Source: Spirulina sp.
Lineage (GTDB): Bacteria > Cyanobacteriota > Cyanobacteriia > Cyanobacteriales > Spirulinaceae
Reading direction: 5' to 3'
DNA: 39,788 nt
Assembly (NCBI GenBank): GCA_011390265.1
Contig: JAABSU010000003.1
Location: forward strand, 1-39,788
How positions within the stretch are numbered: the stretch's first letter is position 1; each line of letters begins with the position of its first letter. The position numbers were made by a program, and so were the translations under genes. Below are positions 901-34,943 of the stretch, one piece after another. The notes beneath the pieces were generated by a model, which saw nothing but the letters and a program-made list of their open reading frames with translations, searched no databases and was not told the origin of the DNA.

Positions 901-1129
901 GTATAACATTCACCTTTTTAAGGAGTAAAACCCTTACCGGTTAAGGGTTTTGGTGAACCATGAAGTTTTGTATATGGTAGATCTAGCAATTTTTGTATAT
1001 GGTAGATCTAGCAATTTTTGACATCTCAATATTGATGTGCTAGAGTCCTGGTGAGGTTTGGTTATGGAGGGTTCAGCTCCCCAAATCTTAAGTATGTTGG
1101 GCTGCTGATCGCTGCCTAATCAGTAGTTA
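901..1129 (+). repeat. Long structured repeat, copy 1 (candidate non-canonical long attC / cassette-junction repeat)
   Basis: ~95% identical (about 10 substitutions by eye) to 2165-2368 apart from a 25-bp tandem duplication. Starts GTATAAC, ends GTTA, and flanks diverge abruptly on both sides. Internal stems AAAACCCTTA/TAAGGGTTTT, TTCACC/GGTGAA and TCTAGC/GCTAGA. Confidence 0.85.
966..1015 (+). repeat. Perfect 25-bp tandem duplication (TTTTGTATATGGTAGATCTAGCAAT x2) inside repeat copy 1
   Basis: Two adjacent identical 25-mers (966-990 and 991-1015); only one present in copy 2. Confidence 0.95.
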
Positions 1130-2164: not shown

Positions 2165-2368
2165 GTATAACATTCACCTTTTTAAGGACTAAAACCCTTA
2201 CCAGTTAAGGGTTTTGATGAACCATGAAGTTTTGTATATGGTAGATCTAGCAATTTTTGACACCTCAATATTGATGTGCTAGAGTCCCGGTAAGGCTTGG
2301 TTATGGAGGGTTCAGCTCCCCAAATCTTAGGTATGTTGGGCTGCTAATCGCTGCCTAATCAATAGTTA
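2165..2368 (+). repeat. Long structured repeat, copy 2 (candidate non-canonical long attC / cassette-junction repeat)
   Basis: ~95% identical to 901-1129 minus the 25-bp duplication; starts GTATAAC, ends at GTTA (followed by GCC, so GTTAGCC fits GTTRRRY approximately). Confidence 0.85.
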
Positions 2369-2384
2369 GCCCTACAAAATTATC

Positions 2385-2807
2385 ATGGGTAAACAGATTG
2401 TTCTTATTTCATGTGTGAGTCAGAAGCTAGGGCAGCGAGCAAAGGCGAAGGATCTTTATGTGAGTACACTTTTCAAGCTGAATCTTAGATATGCTCAAAA
2501 ACTAGCCCCAGACGAAATTCTTATTCTGTCAGCAAAGCACGGTCTACTATCATTAGATCAAGAAATTGACCCCTATGAACAGACCCTTAAAACCATACCC
2601 GCCCTTGAGGTTAAGCAATGGGCTGATCAAGTTCTAGGTCAAATTCGTGCAAAATGCTCTATTGACGAGACGGCTTTCATTTTTCTTGCAGGGGAAAGAT
2701 ACAGGAAATATTTACTACCACACTTGAAGAATGTACAGATTCCTCTAAAGGGTTTAGGTATCGGAAGACAACTGCAAAAATTGAAAGAGTTAATTGATGA
2801 GTACTGA
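2385..2807 (+). CDS. DUF6884 domain-containing protein
   Basis: LISCVSQKL...AKDLYVSTLF...LILSAKHGLLSLDQEIDPYEQTL matches the DUF6884 pattern (SC-x-K, A-DLY-S-LF, SAK-GLL, pY-xTL). Confidence 0.85.
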   Translation: MGKQIVLISCVSQKLGQRAKAKDLYVSTLFKLNLRYAQKLAPDEILILSAKHGLLSLDQEIDPYEQTLKTIPALEVKQWADQVLGQIRAKCSIDETAFIFLAGERYRKYLLPHLKNVQIPLKGLGIGRQLQKLKELIDEY

Positions 2808-3432
2808 ATGCACAGAAATCCATAAAATCACTAATAGCATTGGGCGACATGGATTTCCTTTTGATGAGACGAGAATACCCCTCAATGGAATTTATATTCT
2901 GTTTCAAAAAGGTGAGAAGGCTCATGGACAGGACAGAATTGTGAGGATCGGTACTCATACTGGTGATCACCAACTCCGTCCAAGACTGAAACAACACTTT
3001 CTAAGTGAGAATAAAGACCGTAGTATCTTTAGGAAGAATATTGGTAGAGCGCTCTTGAAGAAGCAGAATGATCCATTTCTTCAGTTGTGGGAACTTGATC
3101 TCACAACTCGAAAAGCGAAAGATAACTACTCGCAGCAGATTGATTTTGACTACCAACAAAAAATTGAAAGTCAGGTTAGTAAGTACATTCGCGATAATTT
3201 CTCCTTTGGTGTATTTGAAGTTGCAAGCAAAGAAGAACGCTTAGAGATTGAGTCTAAACTCATCTCAACTGTATCTTGGTGTGATGAGTGTAAGCCTTCT
3301 AGCGCTTGGCTTGGGAACAGTTCACCCAAGGAAAAGGTTGTTCAGAGTGGTTTATGGTTAGTAAATGAGCTTTATAAAACCCCATGTAATGCTTCAGATA
3401 TTGAACACTTATCTCGGCTCATTGATGGCTAA
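2797..3432 (+). CDS. GIY-YIG-type nuclease-like protein
   Basis: NGIYILF...RIVRIGTHTG...LRPRLKQHF...SIFRKNIGRALL, with later E (RLEIESKLI) and N (WLGNSSP) in GIY-YIG order. ATG start overlaps the upstream stop (translational coupling). ORF track starts at TTG 2794. Confidence 0.75.
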   Translation: MSTECTEIHKITNSIGRHGFPFDETRIPLNGIYILFQKGEKAHGQDRIVRIGTHTGDHQLRPRLKQHFLSENKDRSIFRKNIGRALLKKQNDPFLQLWELDLTTRKAKDNYSQQIDFDYQQKIESQVSKYIRDNFSFGVFEVASKEERLEIESKLISTVSWCDECKPSSAWLGNSSPKEKVVQSGLWLVNELYKTPCNASDIEHLSRLIDG

Positions 3433-3519
3433 CAAATCATTGGAGCGGACGGATGTTGTATTCTCGTGGTGAGTTGAAGGTTGAATGCTTCTCGTCGCCG
3501 CTCAATTCAACCGTTATAC
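3427..3519 (+). other. attC integron recombination site 2
   Basis: R'' GGCTAAC (3427-3433, contains the TAA stop of the upstream gene), R' GTTATAC (3513-3519). TAACAAATCATTGGAGCGGACG pairs with the reverse complement of CGTCGCCGCTCAATTCAACCGTTA, leaving an unpaired G in ATT(G)GAGCGG. Confidence 0.8.
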
Positions 3520-7356: not shown

Positions 7357-8751
7357 CTAGGGGCGGCTCAGTTGGAGCCAGTCCCGGCCCAGTTGGATCG
7401 TAATATCTGAGCTTAACTCCCCGGTACTTTCCACCCGCACCTCGCCAATCCCCAGAGCCAACTGAATCTGAGCCGCCACCCCCTGATCCCCCTTTTGGGC
7501 AATGATTCGCGTCGTTTCCAGAGGTTCATTCCAATTACTGCCCATGAAAAAATTGCCGTAGCCTTGAGCCCGTAAACTGTCCTGGAGGGCGGCGATCGCC
7601 CCATCACTCCCCGTACTATTTTGGATCCCAATCCGCACCCTTTCCGGCGTGCCATCGGCCACCGTCCCCATCCCCTGCTCAAAATGATTGGCCATGATCT
7701 GCCGAATTCCCTGCTGATTGGGGAGCCAATAGCTCACTTCCGTTTCCCCAGTGCCATTAAAGGCCCCCGGTAGCATTAACATCTGCACATCATCCCGCTT
7801 CGTATTGGCCGCAAACCCCACCAGGGCCGCTAATTCTTCCACGGTCAGGTTGGTATCAATATTTTCTTGAATGACATTGAAAATTTTCGGCAGTTTCAGC
7901 AGGGTTTGGGGGCGCACCGCCTGCTCAATCACCGCCCGGATCAAGAGTTGCTGCCGTTGTACCCGACCAATATCGCCAAAGCGATCGTAGCGAAACCGCA
8001 AAAACTGGGAGGCTTTGTCGCCGTCCAAATGCTGCTCCCCTTGCTTGAGATCAATGTAGAGGTGTTGGCTATGGTCGGTGTATTTCATATCGTTGGGGAC
8101 GTAGAGCGTCACGCCCCCCAAGGCATCGATTAACTTTTCCACCGCCTGGACATTAATGCGCACATAGCGGTCAATGGGGACACCACCGAGCAATTGACTG
8201 ACAGCACGAGCCGTTAGGGGCGCTCCCCCCTCCAGATTGACCGCATTAATTTTCATCTCCCCATACCCCGGCAGCCTTACAGGGGTATCCCGTGGAATCG
8301 ACAGGGCCGTGAGTTTGTAGCGGCTGGGGTCAAACCGAACCAGGATCATCGTATCTGATAGGCCCTCCACGGAATCCACCACTTGGTGATAGCCCAGATC
8401 CGGGGGCGTATGATCAAGATCACCACTGAGCACCTTTGTCCCCAAGATTAAGACATTAACCGGACGGGTCAGTTTGGGCAGGCTGAGGCTATCGGAGGTC
8501 ATGGAACCCCCTTGGGAGAAGAGGGCGTTATCCTCCGAAGAAAGGAGGATACGACGGAGGGGGGTGGCGGAGAGAGAAATGGCTAAAATTGCCCCTGCCA
8601 TCGCCGAAACGATCCCAATACCCGTGAGTCCTAACCAAATCCAAACCCAACGGGGGTTTTGTTTCCCGTGGGCACGGCTTTTTTTGCGATATTTTCGCGG
8701 TGCTGTGCCAGGGCGGACGGGCTTAGATTTGACGTGACTTGGTTTAACCAC
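7357..8751 (-). CDS. LytR-CpsA-Psr (LCP) family protein with LytR C-terminal domain
   Basis: Single TM N-terminus, DTMILVRFDPSRYKLTALSIPRDTPV, INAVNLEGG, YVRINVQAVEKLIDALGGVTLYVP, QFLRFRYDRFGDIGRVQRQQ. Confidence 0.95.
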   Translation of the reverse strand: MVKPSHVKSKPVRPGTAPRKYRKKSRAHGKQNPRWVWIWLGLTGIGIVSAMAGAILAISLSATPLRRILLSSEDNALFSQGGSMTSDSLSLPKLTRPVNVLILGTKVLSGDLDHTPPDLGYHQVVDSVEGLSDTMILVRFDPSRYKLTALSIPRDTPVRLPGYGEMKINAVNLEGGAPLTARAVSQLLGGVPIDRYVRINVQAVEKLIDALGGVTLYVPNDMKYTDHSQHLYIDLKQGEQHLDGDKASQFLRFRYDRFGDIGRVQRQQLLIRAVIEQAVRPQTLLKLPKIFNVIQENIDTNLTVEELAALVGFAANTKRDDVQMLMLPGAFNGTGETEVSYWLPNQQGIRQIMANHFEQGMGTVADGTPERVRIGIQNSTGSDGAIAALQDSLRAQGYGNFFMGSNWNEPLETTRIIAQKGDQGVAAQIQLALGIGEVRVESTGELSSDITIQLGRDWLQLSRP

Positions 8752-8966
8752 AAATTTTTACCACACCATTCAACAGGCAAATTTCCCAGTAATGTAAACG
8801 CAACAGAAAAGGGTTTGCAAGGTTTACCACATCATCATTGCAGCAGTTTTGGGACAAAATCGGGATGAGAAGCACGAAAAATGGGCCAAAGTCCGCAGGA
8901 TGTTTTTTCGATTGTACGGTACGGGTTGAAATTGGCATAGATGGGAGATAAAAGATCGCGCCTTTG

Positions 8967-9311
8967 CTATTCTCCCCCCGGTAATCGAGGGGTTTTTCCC
9001 TGCCACACCTGAAACATTAACCCGACGCAGGTTAAGACGTAAATACTGCTGAGGGTTCCCTCGAAAAATAAGAGACGGAATTGCCAGATCTGGTCTGGGG
9101 TTTGGGTTGCACCGAGGCTTAAAATGCTGATCAGTCCCAGCCAAATCAGCAATAAACGCAGGGCGAGGCGGCTGGTTTGCTGTTGTTGGGGAGAGCTTTG
9201 GGGTTGCCAGAGAAACCAGAGGGCCGGCACTGTGCCGAGGAAGGGAATCAGGGTGAACCAAAGTTGCAGCTTAGTGAGTGGGCGTTCTGCGAAGGGATCG
9301 GGGGGATGCAT
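8967..9311 (-). CDS. Conserved cyanobacterial membrane protein (hypothetical)
   Basis: 114 aa with 3-4 hydrophobic segments; precedes the aldo/keto reductase gene direction on the same strand. Confidence 0.6.
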   Translation of the reverse strand: MHPPDPFAERPLTKLQLWFTLIPFLGTVPALWFLWQPQSSPQQQQTSRLALRLLLIWLGLISILSLGATQTPDQIWQFRLLFFEGTLSSIYVLTCVGLMFQVWQGKTPRLPGGE

Positions 9312-9332
9312 GGGGGATTCGTGATTTTGGGG

Positions 9333-10331
9333 CTAACGGCTTTGGAAGATATTCTGTACCATCGGTTTTGCCAGGGCTGCGGCTTGATCGAGGGCAGCGA
9401 CTTCGCCCTCATGGAGTCGCCACCCGATCGCACCGGCATTTTCCTGAGCTTGGGCAATGGTTTTCGCGCCAGGGATGGGCATCGCGCCTTTGCAGATGCA
9501 CCAATTGAGGGCGATTTGGGCGATGGTTTTGTTTTTCGCTTCGGCTAAGGCGGCTAAACATTGTTGCAGTGGTGCCATTTTTGGCAAAATTTGCCGACAA
9601 ACCACCCCCCGCAATCCCGATGGATAGGGGCCGGTTGGGCCATATTTGCCGGTGAGTAACCCTAGGGCAAGGGGGCTATAGGCAATCAACTGGATGCCGA
9701 GGCGATCGCACTGCGCCTTTAACCCCAATTCCGTCACGGGATAGGTAGAGAGGAGGGAATATTGGACTTGCAGGGAGGCGATGGGGATATGGCGATCGCC
9801 CAACCGCTCATTAGCCCACTGCAACCGCCGCGGCCCAAAATTCGATAACCCCACCCCCCTCACCAAACCCTCCTGATACAGTTGGGCCAACCCATCCAAG
9901 AGCGGCCCCTCCTGCCAAGGAAAATAATTCGCCGTTGACCAATGCAATTGCACCAAATCAATGGGCCGCCCCAACCGCTCCACCGAAGCCGCCGCCGCCT
10001 TCACCATCGCGCCCGCCGTTAACCGCCAAGGGTAGGGGGCCAATTTTGTCCCAATGCAAATTTTTTCCCGGTTCGGCCCTGAGTATTCTCGGGCAAACCG
10101 CCCTAACAGGATCTCACTTTGCCCTTTTAGTTTCCCCGTACCGTAGGAATCCCCCGTATCAAAAAACGTCACCCCCCGCCCCACCGCGTAGTTAAAGGCC
10201 GCTTGAAGGTCATCATCCATTTCAGGGCGGTAATCCCAAAGGAGGCGATTGCCCCAAGCCCAAGTGCCGCAGCCCAGTTCTGGCCAGGTGAGGGCAGGGG
10301 AGGATGGAGGCAAGGATGGCTTTATCTGCAT
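9333..10331 (-). CDS. Aldo/keto reductase
   Basis: GVTFFDTGDSYG, GTKLAPYPWRLT, DLVQLHW, VRGVGLSNFG, LIAYSPLALGLLTGKY, IPGAKTIAQAQENAGA. Confidence 0.95.
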   Translation of the reverse strand: MQIKPSLPPSSPALTWPELGCGTWAWGNRLLWDYRPEMDDDLQAAFNYAVGRGVTFFDTGDSYGTGKLKGQSEILLGRFAREYSGPNREKICIGTKLAPYPWRLTAGAMVKAAAASVERLGRPIDLVQLHWSTANYFPWQEGPLLDGLAQLYQEGLVRGVGLSNFGPRRLQWANERLGDRHIPIASLQVQYSLLSTYPVTELGLKAQCDRLGIQLIAYSPLALGLLTGKYGPTGPYPSGLRGVVCRQILPKMAPLQQCLAALAEAKNKTIAQIALNWCICKGAMPIPGAKTIAQAQENAGAIGWRLHEGEVAALDQAAALAKPMVQNIFQSR

Positions 10332-30949: not shown

Positions 30950-33667
30950 ATGGATGCTTTAGAGCGCGATCGCCTCCAAAACTTTGTCAATTTTTGCGAT
31001 TCCTACATTACGGGGGATGAGAAGGGGGAGGCGCAGGTTTTCCTGGATCACTTTTTTCAGGCGTTTGGCCATGAGGGGGCGATGCAGGCGGGGGCGGTGT
31101 ATGAGAAGCGGATTGAGAAGGGGAGCAAGAAGGGCAAGACGGGGTTTGCGGATTTGGTATGGAAGCCGCGTGTTTTGGTAGAGATGAAGCGGCGGGGGGC
31201 GGATCTCAGCAAGCATTATTCCCAGGCGTTTGAATATTGGCAGCGGGCGGTTCCGAATCGGCCGCGTTATGTGATGTTGTGCAATTTTGATCAGTTTTGG
31301 ATTTACGATTTTGATATTCAAATTGATACGCCGATTGATCGGGTGATGTTGGCGGATTTGCCGAATCGGGCGGGGGTATTTGGGTTTATGTTGCCCCGTG
31401 AGCGGCCGTCGGTGTTTGGCAATAATCAGGTGGAAGTGACGGAGAAGGCGGCGCGGCGTTTGGGGGAGGGTTTATATCCCGATTTATGGCGGCGGTTACA
31501 GCGGGAGCAACGGTTATCGGAGGGGGAGGCGGCGCTGATGGCGCAGCGGTTTGTGTTGCAGTGTGTGTTGGCGATGTTTGCGGAGGATCGGGGGTTATTA
31601 CCGGATAGTTTGTTTATTCGTTGTGTGCAGGATTGTATTGGGGGGAAGAGTTCATATAATGTGATTTCGCGGGGTTTATTTGAAGAAATGAATAGGCCAG
31701 GAGTTGAATCAATGGGACGGTTTAAGGGGGTGGATTATTTTAATGGGGGGTTGTTTGCGAAGATTGATAGTTTGGAGTTGACGACGCAGGAGTTAAGGAT
31801 TTTGGAGGCTTCGGGGTTGGAGGATTGGAGTAAGGTGCGGCCGGCAATTTTTGGGAGTATTTTTGAGTCAGCGATTGATCAGGGGGAGCGTCATGCCCAT
31901 GGGATTCATTACACATCGGAGGGGGATATTATGAAGATTATCCGGCCGACAATTTCGCGCTATTGGGAGGAGCGGATTGAGGGGGCGGGGACGTTGAAGG
32001 AGTTGGAGGATTTACGGCGGGAGTTGGCGGGTTATCGGGTGTTAGATCCGGCTTGTGGTTCGGGGAATTTTCTTTATTTGGCCTATCGGGAATTGAAGCG
32101 GTTGGAGCAGGATTTGTTGGAGAAGATTGGGGAGCGGCGGCGGTCGGGGGGTGATCAGGTGGAGTTGGGTTTTGTTACGCCGTTGCAGTTTTTTGGGTTG
32201 GATAGTAATGGGTTTGCGGTGGAGTTGGCGCGGGTGACGTTGATGATTGCGCGGAAGGTGGCGATTGATGAGTTGGGGTTGACGGAGCGGGCGTTGCCAT
32301 TGGATACGTTGGATAACAATATTGTTTGTGCGGATGCGTTGTTTACGGAGTGGCCGCGGGCGGATGCGATTATTGGAAATCCGCCATTTTTGGGGGGGAA
32401 TAGAATGCGTCAAGTATTAGGGGATGAATATATTGAAAGAGTATTCAGTAAGTTTCCAGAAGTGAAATCACAAGTCGATTTTTGCTGTTATTGGTTTAGG
32501 CTCGCTCACGAAAATTCACCCAAAGATCAAAGAGTAGGTTTAGTTGGAACCAACACAATCAGCCAAGGAAATAGTAGATCTGCTTCCTTAGAGTATGTAA
32601 CCCAAAATGGAGGTTTTTTGCATGATGTTATTTCTACTCAAGAATGGTCAGGTGATGCGAAAGTTCATGTCAGTTTAGTTAATTGGTGTTATCAAGAAAC
32701 ACGCAATCTTTATTTAGACAACATATCAGTAAATACAATAAATTCATCACTAAATTCACAAATTTCTGTTTCTAAAGCGTCAAGCTTAAGGGCAAACAAA
32801 AATTTTTGCTTTGAGGGAGCCAAACCGAATGCAAAAAATTTCTTTATTTCTAAAGAAATAGTTGATGAGTGGCTCAAAATTAATCCAAAAAATCAAGCAG
32901 TACTCAAGCTTTTTTTAGATGCAAATGATTTAACCAAAGAACTTAATGGGCAACCGAGCAGATGGATTATCGACTTTGAAAATCGAACAGTAGAAGATGC
33001 TTCGATGTTTAGTCATCCTTTTAATTATGTAAGGGAATATGTAAAGCCAGAACGAGATAATTGCAGAGAAAAGGTATTAAGAGAAAAGTGGTGGCGTTTC
33101 AAGCGTACTCATGCTGCCATGAGAAATGCAATAGCTCCACTTGATGTATATTTTGCAGTTCCAGCACATTCAAAATGGTTTATTTTTCTGCCTTCGCAAC
33201 CAGATTGGCTACCTGGAAACTCCACTAAGGTTGTTGCATCAAATGACTATTATGTTCTTGGGATTTTAACTTCAAAAACTCATCGAACATGGGTAAAAGC
33301 GCAAAGCTCAACACTTAAAGGCGATACGCGCTACACCCATAACACCTGCTTTGAAACCTTCCCCTTTCCCCAAACCCCCACCCCAAAAATCATCGAAAAA
33401 ATTCGCCAAACGACCCTAGCCCTCCATCAATACCGCAGCCAACAAATGGAACAAAAACAATGGGGCATCACCAAACTTTATAACGCCTACTTTGATGAAC
33501 CCGCCAGCCAACTCTATAAACTCCACCAACAACTCGACAGCCTCACCCTCCAAGCCTACGGATTCACCCCCCAAGACGACATCCTCGAAAAACTGTTAAC
33601 CCTCAACCACCAACTCGCCGCCCAAGAACAAGCCGGACAACCCATCATCGGCCCCCACGCCCCATAA
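30950..33667 (+). CDS. Type IIL (MmeI-like) fused restriction endonuclease / adenine-specific DNA methyltransferase
   Basis: N-terminal PD-(D/E)XK-like segment (KTGFADLVWKPRVLVEMKRRG), MTase motif I (DPACGSGNFLYLAYRELKRLE), motif IV NPPFLGG, downstream TRD and C-terminal FETFPFP... region. Confidence 0.92.
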   Translation: MDALERDRLQNFVNFCDSYITGDEKGEAQVFLDHFFQAFGHEGAMQAGAVYEKRIEKGSKKGKTGFADLVWKPRVLVEMKRRGADLSKHYSQAFEYWQRAVPNRPRYVMLCNFDQFWIYDFDIQIDTPIDRVMLADLPNRAGVFGFMLPRERPSVFGNNQVEVTEKAARRLGEGLYPDLWRRLQREQRLSEGEAALMAQRFVLQCVLAMFAEDRGLLPDSLFIRCVQDCIGGKSSYNVISRGLFEEMNRPGVESMGRFKGVDYFNGGLFAKIDSLELTTQELRILEASGLEDWSKVRPAIFGSIFESAIDQGERHAHGIHYTSEGDIMKIIRPTISRYWEERIEGAGTLKELEDLRRELAGYRVLDPACGSGNFLYLAYRELKRLEQDLLEKIGERRRSGGDQVELGFVTPLQFFGLDSNGFAVELARVTLMIARKVAIDELGLTERALPLDTLDNNIVCADALFTEWPRADAIIGNPPFLGGNRMRQVLGDEYIERVFSKFPEVKSQVDFCCYWFRLAHENSPKDQRVGLVGTNTISQGNSRSASLEYVTQNGGFLHDVISTQEWSGDAKVHVSLVNWCYQETRNLYLDNISVNTINSSLNSQISVSKASSLRANKNFCFEGAKPNAKNFFISKEIVDEWLKINPKNQAVLKLFLDANDLTKELNGQPSRWIIDFENRTVEDASMFSHPFNYVREYVKPERDNCREKVLREKWWRFKRTHAAMRNAIAPLDVYFAVPAHSKWFIFLPSQPDWLPGNSTKVVASNDYYVLGILTSKTHRTWVKAQSSTLKGDTRYTHNTCFETFPFPQTPTPKIIEKIRQTTLALHQYRSQQMEQKQWGITKLYNAYFDEPASQLYKLHQQLDSLTLQAYGFTPQDDILEKLLTLNHQLAAQEQAGQPIIGPHAP

Positions 33668-33692
33668 CCAATTCCCACCACCCCTTAACATC

Positions 33693-34943
33693 ATGAAACG
33701 CCCCATCGCCATCGACCTGTTTGCAGGATGTGGCGGCATGTCCCTCGGCCTAGAAGCCGCCGGATTTGATATCGCCGCCGCCGTCGAACTTGATCCAATT
33801 CATACATTAGTTCACCACTTTAACTTCCCCTACGGAGCAAGCATTTGTAAAAATATTTCTGAATTAAATCCTCAAGATTTGCTACAGGCTTTAAAAAACA
33901 AAAAAATTGATCGTGAAATAGACCTCATTGCAGGCGGGCCACCCTGCCAAGGCTTTTCCCACATGGGCAAACGACAACTAGACGACCCCAGAAACACCCT
34001 CATCTTTGAATACCTGCGCATCATCAAAACCATCAAACCTAAATATTTTCTCTTTGAAAACGTCCCCGGCATCGCCTCCGGCCAACATCAAAAATTCTTA
34101 ACAGAATTAATCATTGAATTTGAAAACATCGGCTACTCAATTCAAAAACCCATCGCAATCCTAAACGCATCCCATTACGGTGCGCCCCAAAATCGGAAAA
34201 GACTAATCCTCATCGGCTCCAGACTCGACGTTAATCCAGCCGCCTACCCCCCACAAACCCATTTAGACATCAACACCAGGGCAACCTGTGAACAAGCCAT
34301 TGGCGATCTAAGCACACACCCCCCCTATCACAAAAATGATCCAGGCATTCCAGCCTCACAATTAAACTATGCCGGCCTAAGAACCCACTTTGCCCTCCAA
34401 CCCAGCGGCGAATTTAACCTCTGCCATCAGCGACAAATTGGCCCCCTCGTTTATGGCCACATCGGATCAAACCATACCCAAAAATCAAGCGATCGCTTTC
34501 AAACAACCCCCCTCGGAACCGTCGAAACAATCAGTCGATTCTTTAAACTGTCCCCCCATGGCCAATGTAATACCCTCAGAGCCGGAACCACCAGCGACAA
34601 AGGAGCCTATACCGCCCCTAGACCCATTCATTATGGCGCTCCTCGCTGTATTACCGTTAGAGAAGCAGCAAGATTGCACACCTTCCCCGATTGGTTTCGG
34701 TTTCATAATACTATTTGGCACGGCTTTCGAGAAATTGGTAACGCCGTAGTTCCCTTGCTCGCCAAAGCCTTAGGGTGTGAAATCATCAAAGCCATGGGCC
34801 TGAATCCCCAAGAATTTAAAACCTATACCCTCAGCCCACAGGATGAAACACTGTTAGGCTATAACATGGCCCAAGCCTCAAAATATTGGAATATTCCAGA
34901 TAACGTCATTCCCAAACGGAAAAGATCGATCTCAACGCCCTAA
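33693..34943 (+). CDS. DNA (cytosine-5-)-methyltransferase
   Basis: DLFAGCGGMSLGLEAAGF (I), GGPPCQGFSHMGKRQLDDPRN (IV), FENVPG (VI), QNRKRLILIGSR (VIII), REAARLHTFPDWF (IX), IGNAVVPLLAKALG (X). Confidence 0.97.
   Translation: MKRPIAIDLFAGCGGMSLGLEAAGFDIAAAVELDPIHTLVHHFNFPYGASICKNISELNPQDLLQALKNKKIDREIDLIAGGPPCQGFSHMGKRQLDDPRNTLIFEYLRIIKTIKPKYFLFENVPGIASGQHQKFLTELIIEFENIGYSIQKPIAILNASHYGAPQNRKRLILIGSRLDVNPAAYPPQTHLDINTRATCEQAIGDLSTHPPYHKNDPGIPASQLNYAGLRTHFALQPSGEFNLCHQRQIGPLVYGHIGSNHTQKSSDRFQTTPLGTVETISRFFKLSPHGQCNTLRAGTTSDKGAYTAPRPIHYGAPRCITVREAARLHTFPDWFRFHNTIWHGFREIGNAVVPLLAKALGCEIIKAMGLNPQEFKTYTLSPQDETLLGYNMAQASKYWNIPDNVIPKRKRSISTP

Follow-up and report, generated by a model that had tools for sequence, protein, structure and literature searches.

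Organization of the A–B cassette

The window analysed here, that is, the whole stretch of 39,788 nt of a Spirulina sp. contig (JAABSU010000003.1), contains two overlapping genes, named A and B in this work, that are enclosed by sequence motifs of an integron cassette.

2365–2371, forward strand: R' core site GTTAGCC in the sequence just before gene A, left cassette boundary
2385–2807, forward strand: gene A, 140 aa, DUF6884/PDC-M57A, predicted base-handling protein of the YaaA/DpdC type (Pfam and PADLOC)
2797–2807, forward strand: 11-nt overlap of the gene B start region with the gene A stop codon, translational coupling
2797–3432, forward strand: gene B, 211 aa, PDC-M57B, predicted divergent GIY-YIG-type nuclease (PADLOC, alignment and model)
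3427–3519, forward strand: attC of the A–B cassette, identified by motifs (R'' GGCTAAC 3427–3433, R' GTTATAC 3513–3519)

Gene A matches the Pfam family DUF6884 (PF21818, E = 4.8e-43) and, over residues 3–136, the PADLOC model PDLC04712 (PDC-M57A, E = 1.1e-56). Gene B, read from the ATG at 2797 (a TTG at 2794 is a possible alternative start), matches PDLC04713 (PDC-M57B, E = 3.6e-98). Both PADLOC models are matched over their full length by adjacent and overlapping genes and, by these profile matches, the pair is the same system as PDC-M57, a phage-defence candidate already present in PADLOC. Because PADLOC contains models of both proteins, the initial annotation, which had picked out this locus as a candidate defence system, rediscovered a catalogued candidate. 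PDCs are predictions (PMC12988326); the PADLOC entry of PDC-M57 gives no mechanism, and our literature search found no paper that names or tests it. The pair itself is thus already catalogued, and what is new here is a modified-base lead, the occurrence of A–B fusions and the swapping of A for other YaaA-type partners, to which the integron location and the link of A relatives to DpdA are added.

The location of A and B in one cassette, proposed in the initial annotation, is upheld by the motifs at both ends. The GTTAGCC core site at 2365 belongs to a segment, GTTAGCCCTACAAAATTATCATG (2365–2387), that occurs once in the window, and the TAA stop codon of gene B falls inside the R'' GGCTAAC of the attC that follows it. 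The arms between this R'' and GTTATAC are TTGGAGCGG and CCGCTCAA. The motif layout of this attC is canonical; its folded bottom strand is not better than shuffled sequences (z about 0), an automatic attC finder with thresholds that are too strict returned zero sites, and a search against Rfam gave sub-threshold matches only. Sites were read by motif, and because folding is no better than in shuffles, the attC call at 3427–3519 is based on the motifs and on parallels in Marinomonas and Verrucomicrobium. In Marinomonas (L013), GTTAGCC lies just before A and the B stop codon is inside R'', so that the pair is bounded as in the Spirulina cassette; the site after B has ends that pair with each other, with a folding energy that is likewise not better than shuffles. 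In Verrucomicrobium (L015), the site following B also contains the B stop codon in its R'' and forms a hairpin with a z-score of -4.4, and a site of this type is found just downstream in a spirochaete (L073). Judged from these motifs, the A–B pair sits in integron cassettes of unrelated hosts. The more specific proposal of a mobile integron is unsupported for Spirulina, because no integrase match exceeds the TIGR02249 cut-off in this genome, which is 83% complete. It is established that integrons serve as a reservoir for defence cassettes (PMC12409362), and this location would fit a defence role for A–B without proving it.

Conservation and distribution of the pair

Among about 85,000 genomes scanned, 291 relatives of B came to light, and 80 of them were kept (54 to 75% identity). 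These occur in cyanobacteria, Bacteroidota, Gammaproteobacteria, DPANN archaea, Methanosarcina and others, and together with 11 viral contigs they make up a set of 91 loci. The co-occurrence of the two genes across genomes, proposed at the outset as a check, is clear in this set: canonical A is located upstream of B in 61 loci (in one of them 518 nt away), and in 11 more the two proteins are encoded in one ORF. In five loci a more distant protein of the YaaA/DUF6884 fold replaces A (L011, L012, L052, L071 and L094, the last one fused), ten lack any partner of the A kind beside B, three are cut near a contig end and one retains a remnant of A. Where canonical A is a separate gene (61 loci), the nearest ATG of B overlaps the stop codon of A in 48, and the spacing between the genes is 15 nt or less in 52. 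The overlap that the initial annotation had noticed, in which the B start precedes the A stop codon (2805–2807) by a few nucleotides, is therefore shared by 48 of the 61 comparable loci, and translational coupling is general across loci. Distances between A proteins co-vary with those between B proteins (63 pairs, Mantel r = 0.63, with none of 2000 permutations as high), showing that A and B co-diverge and that the pair is conserved much more than chance would allow. Because, A excepted, none of the genes next to B in the genomic loci recurs in an informative way, A–B is considered a two-part unit.

This organization also bears on the possibility that A–B is a toxin-antitoxin or abortive infection system, in which B would be a nuclease toxin that A keeps in check until a phage infects. 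Two small overlapping cassette genes of which the upstream one could encode the antitoxin, with other toxin-antitoxin genes adjoining in the window, are what such a system might look like. However, A is enzyme-like and highly conserved, with an invariant Cys and Lys, single-chain A–B fusions would be unusual for a labile antitoxin, and the ten lone B genes persist, all of which makes this explanation unlikely.

The spread of the pair is very patchy. The 385 other cyanobacteria sampled yielded no relative of B, and a Pseudanabaena MAG (L010) carries the pair at 75% identity. The flanks of A–B relatives consist mostly of housekeeping genes, neighbour scans for defence islands revealed no strong enrichment, and restriction-modification or AbiE genes account for about 7 of 124 neighbours, a raw count without a random-locus baseline; the proximity to defence islands that had been suggested as a second check is thus not borne out. 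Carriers of the pair also include DPANN and Patescibacteria with small genomes, in which its flanks are mixed or housekeeping.

Divergent A–B pairs on viral contigs (L090–L100), close to terminase-like genes in L090, L096 and L100, raise the alternative that A–B is a phage-encoded module for DNA processing or inter-phage competition that cells carry secondarily. We regard this as very improbable, since members of the close family are found in chromosomes and in integron cassettes, with no phage genes recurring next to them, and a close B is absent from the annotated phage records. A scan of viral contigs with B alone gave zero matches.

Some loci depart from the two-gene arrangement. In L011 (from position 1906 onward) and L012 (8637–9503), the alternative YaaA-type partner is followed by B and then by a further GIY-YIG gene, which in L012 matches PF01541 (E = 2.5e-10) and, weakly, PDC-S14; this may represent a three-gene variant. 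A Haloarcula plasmid (L003, 5878–9417) encodes a divergent M57B-like protein, and two genes on, thus not adjacent, lies a DUF6884-like ORF (8569–9417) recognized by eye from its motif.

B resembles a divergent GIY-YIG nuclease

In an alignment of 72 B proteins (numbering from the ATG at 2797), residues G31, Y33, R47, R50, G52, H54, R63, H67, E124 and E152 are invariant. Among them, Y33, R63 and E152 occupy the places expected for the Tyr, Arg and Glu of GIY-YIG enzymes, in agreement with the initial annotation, which had read B as a nuclease-like gene of the GIY-YIG fold. The two sequence-based outcomes that it had named as refuting, a pair not conserved elsewhere and GIY-YIG residues that vary among homologs, were both not observed. 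The predicted model of B (pLDDT 94.4) has a strand-strand-helix...strand-helix order, with the GIY motif in the first strand and R-I-G replacing YIG in the second, the Arg and a His on the next helix, and the Glu on the helix that follows strand three. Weak profile matches recur among the 72 members (DUF123 in 45, GIY-YIG in 30 and GIY_YIG_2 in 14). As a single sequence, B has no match in Pfam and no GIY-YIG match in the PDB, comparison of B with GIY-YIG families by hhalign is not significant, and the first Foldseek match of the model, T4 EndoII, is not significant either (E = 3.1). Taken together, the alignment, motifs, predicted topology and weak recurrent matches make a GIY-YIG fold for B likely, not proven.

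B thus resembles GIY-YIG nucleases such as UvrC, Hpy188I and T4 EndoII in motif order, predicted layout and the Tyr/Arg/Glu residues, and differs from them in its second motif, R-I-G instead of Y-I-G, and in sequence and fold matches that do not reach significance. Like B, Hpy188I is devoid of the second Tyr (PMC2630997), and because this GIY-YIG enzyme has a Lys at that position, the Tyr to Arg change in B would be compatible with activity.

A belongs to a family often associated with DNA base modification

In gene A, residues C10, K14, Y25, S27, S49, A50, G53, Y64, G103, Y106 and P120 are invariant. Across the A family, the CxxxK and LSAxxG motifs are invariant or nearly so, and thirteen residues are invariant across B-linked, phage and plasmid contexts. 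In the model of a natural A–B fusion (L082; pLDDT 96.9, pTM 0.88), the best fold match of the A half is YaaA (5caj, probability 1.00, E = 3.1e-3). DUF6884 proteins have been described by the authors of Pfam as carrying the CxxxK and LSAxxG motifs and a YaaA-like positive cleft, with base flipping modelled, and the B. subtilis member YfjM was found among the interactors of abasic and RNA-base lesions (PMC11701544).

The main rival to a function in restriction, possible though in our opinion doubtful, is lesion repair, in which A would recognize or excise nucleotides that are damaged, ribo- or abasic, a role proposed for YfjM, and B would nick the DNA like the GIY-YIG domain of UvrC. Beyond the YfjM interactions, this is consistent with the action of YaaA in oxidative stress, with the resemblance of the fused A–B proteins to a recognizer joined to a cutter, and with the presence of the pair among mixed and housekeeping genes in the small genomes of DPANN and Patescibacteria. 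Nevertheless, the very patchy distribution and the mobility of the cassette agree better with an accessory function, and the A relatives of phages are connected with the modification of DNA bases, not with repair.

The profile for A was built from domain hits. The best match of A among annotated phages (47%) is encoded by Fusobacterium phage phiFN37 and lies between a queuine tRNA-ribosyltransferase of the DpdA type and a queuosine-precursor transporter. A DpdA-type transglycosylase is found near the A relative in 29 of 64 scored viral contigs, a set that includes near-identical phages (L123, L134 and L176); sequence search placed it within four genes in 28 of them, and L149 (QueE, FolE, A, TGT, QueC) is the 29th. 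A common gene order is ParB-like, DpdA, A and YhhQ. The A relatives beside DpdA are not paired with B, and B follows A in four further contigs. On a Variovorax plasmid, DpdB overlaps a DUF6884 gene. Moreover, A relatives match profiles of DpdC, the protein that turns dPreQ0 in DNA into dADG (PMC12839542) and that falls in the DUF6884/YaaA group (PMC11888242).

A thus shares with the Dpd system (DpdA, DpdB and DpdC) both its family, through DpdC, and the adjacency of its relatives to DpdA or DpdB in phages and a plasmid. In contrast to Dpd, the A–B pair has neither DpdA nor DpdB alongside (none is present among its neighbours in the window, and no DpdA-like gene was found in the flanks of L010–L100), it contains a nuclease-type partner that is not known from Dpd, and nothing suggests that it modifies host DNA. 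DpdA was also looked for in 23 genomes that carry the pair and gave no matches there; as the control genomes gave none either, this result is uninformative. In the midpoint-rooted tree, one clade of 72 tips (support 0.76) contains every genomic B-linked A protein, and 66 of its tips are B-linked. Because the B-linked proteins form nearly one cluster, A–B has the appearance of a stable offshoot of a family that is elsewhere often connected with base modification. Regarding the suggestion in the initial annotation that A senses nucleotides or modified DNA, the modified-DNA part gains indirect support from the A relatives beside DpdA and the DpdC matches, and nucleotide sensing gains none.

DUF6884 is also found beside other DNA enzymes, namely a DUF262-HNH protein (Halalkalicoccus), an HNH protein (Burkholderia), a different GIY-YIG-like protein (in Deinococcus) and, on a viral contig, a C5 cytosine methylase (L007, L008, L113 and L141). 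In other cyanobacteria (L233–L239), it occurs mostly in open frames of ~700 or ~250 aa, unlike the short stand-alone form of Spirulina.

A candidate modification-dependent restriction module

We propose that A–B is a self-contained, horizontally mobile, modification-dependent (type IV-like) restriction module in which A would read or process an abnormal base and B would cut, a reading to which we assign a probability of about one half. In this module, A, with its YaaA/DpdC fold, would flip out and recognize, or chemically process, an abnormal base of incoming DNA, for which a 7-deazaguanine derivative used by phages (e.g., dPreQ0) is a possibility, and B, acting together with A and presumably in complex with it, would cleave the strand at that base, which may result in phage restriction. 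The observations behind this reading are the pairing, the fusions, the co-divergence, the invariant catalytic-type residues in both proteins, the cassette layout and the genomic link between A relatives and DpdA. Evidence against it comes from the housekeeping flanks, the lack of a single significant GIY-YIG match for B, the absence of B beside the A relatives that make up the DpdA link, and the ten partnerless B genes. The initial observation of the pair is thus confirmed and its interpretation partly supported.

The proposed logic is that of type IV restriction endonucleases, in which a modified-base reader is joined to a nuclease, sometimes in one chain. A–B differs from them in that its reader is of the YaaA/DpdC type, that no known type IV enzyme was matched and that its substrate is putative. 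We know of no described defence that targets 7-deazaguanine DNA modification. More tentatively, A–B could restrict DNA modified in precisely this way, using A as a DpdC-like host-side reader, which would perhaps capture the dPreQ0 nitrile via its invariant Cys, together with a GIY-YIG nuclease, and spreading partly by integrons. Phages use 7-deazaguanines to evade restriction (PMC6884629). The pair is a compact, portable candidate whose partner genes and catalytic-type residues can be named and for which test phages have been published, and it offers a testable mechanism both for the uncharacterised PDC-M57 and for DUF6884.

Other features of the window

A neighbouring cassette (1147–1911) contains an acyltransferase-like gene (1147–1776) with a TIGR03694 match below the cut-off, and the site after this gene is a VCR-like attC with a strong bottom-strand hairpin (z = -3.3). 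Directly downstream of the A–B cassette, the segment 3704–5067 encodes a DUF433-DUF5615 pair and HicA/HicB-like toxin-antitoxin genes. Some 27 kb from the cassette, a large methylase-like ORF is followed by a DNA cytosine methyltransferase-like ORF (30950–34943, by eye), which are possible restriction-modification genes. Finally, a repeat of ~205–230 bp lies ahead of both cassette genes of the window (901–1129 and 2165–2368) and has further copies with 70–78% identity in the Spirulina genome, on contigs C330, C275 and C114 (L107, L108 and L109). Every copy precedes a co-oriented gene, which in L107 is a restriction-enzyme-like ORF with a methylase-like ORF after it, in L108 a GIY-YIG-like ORF and in L109 a PLD-nuclease-like ORF (these three by eye). 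The repeat ends in a GTTAGCC-like core site and may be a long attC, a promoter or another mobile element.
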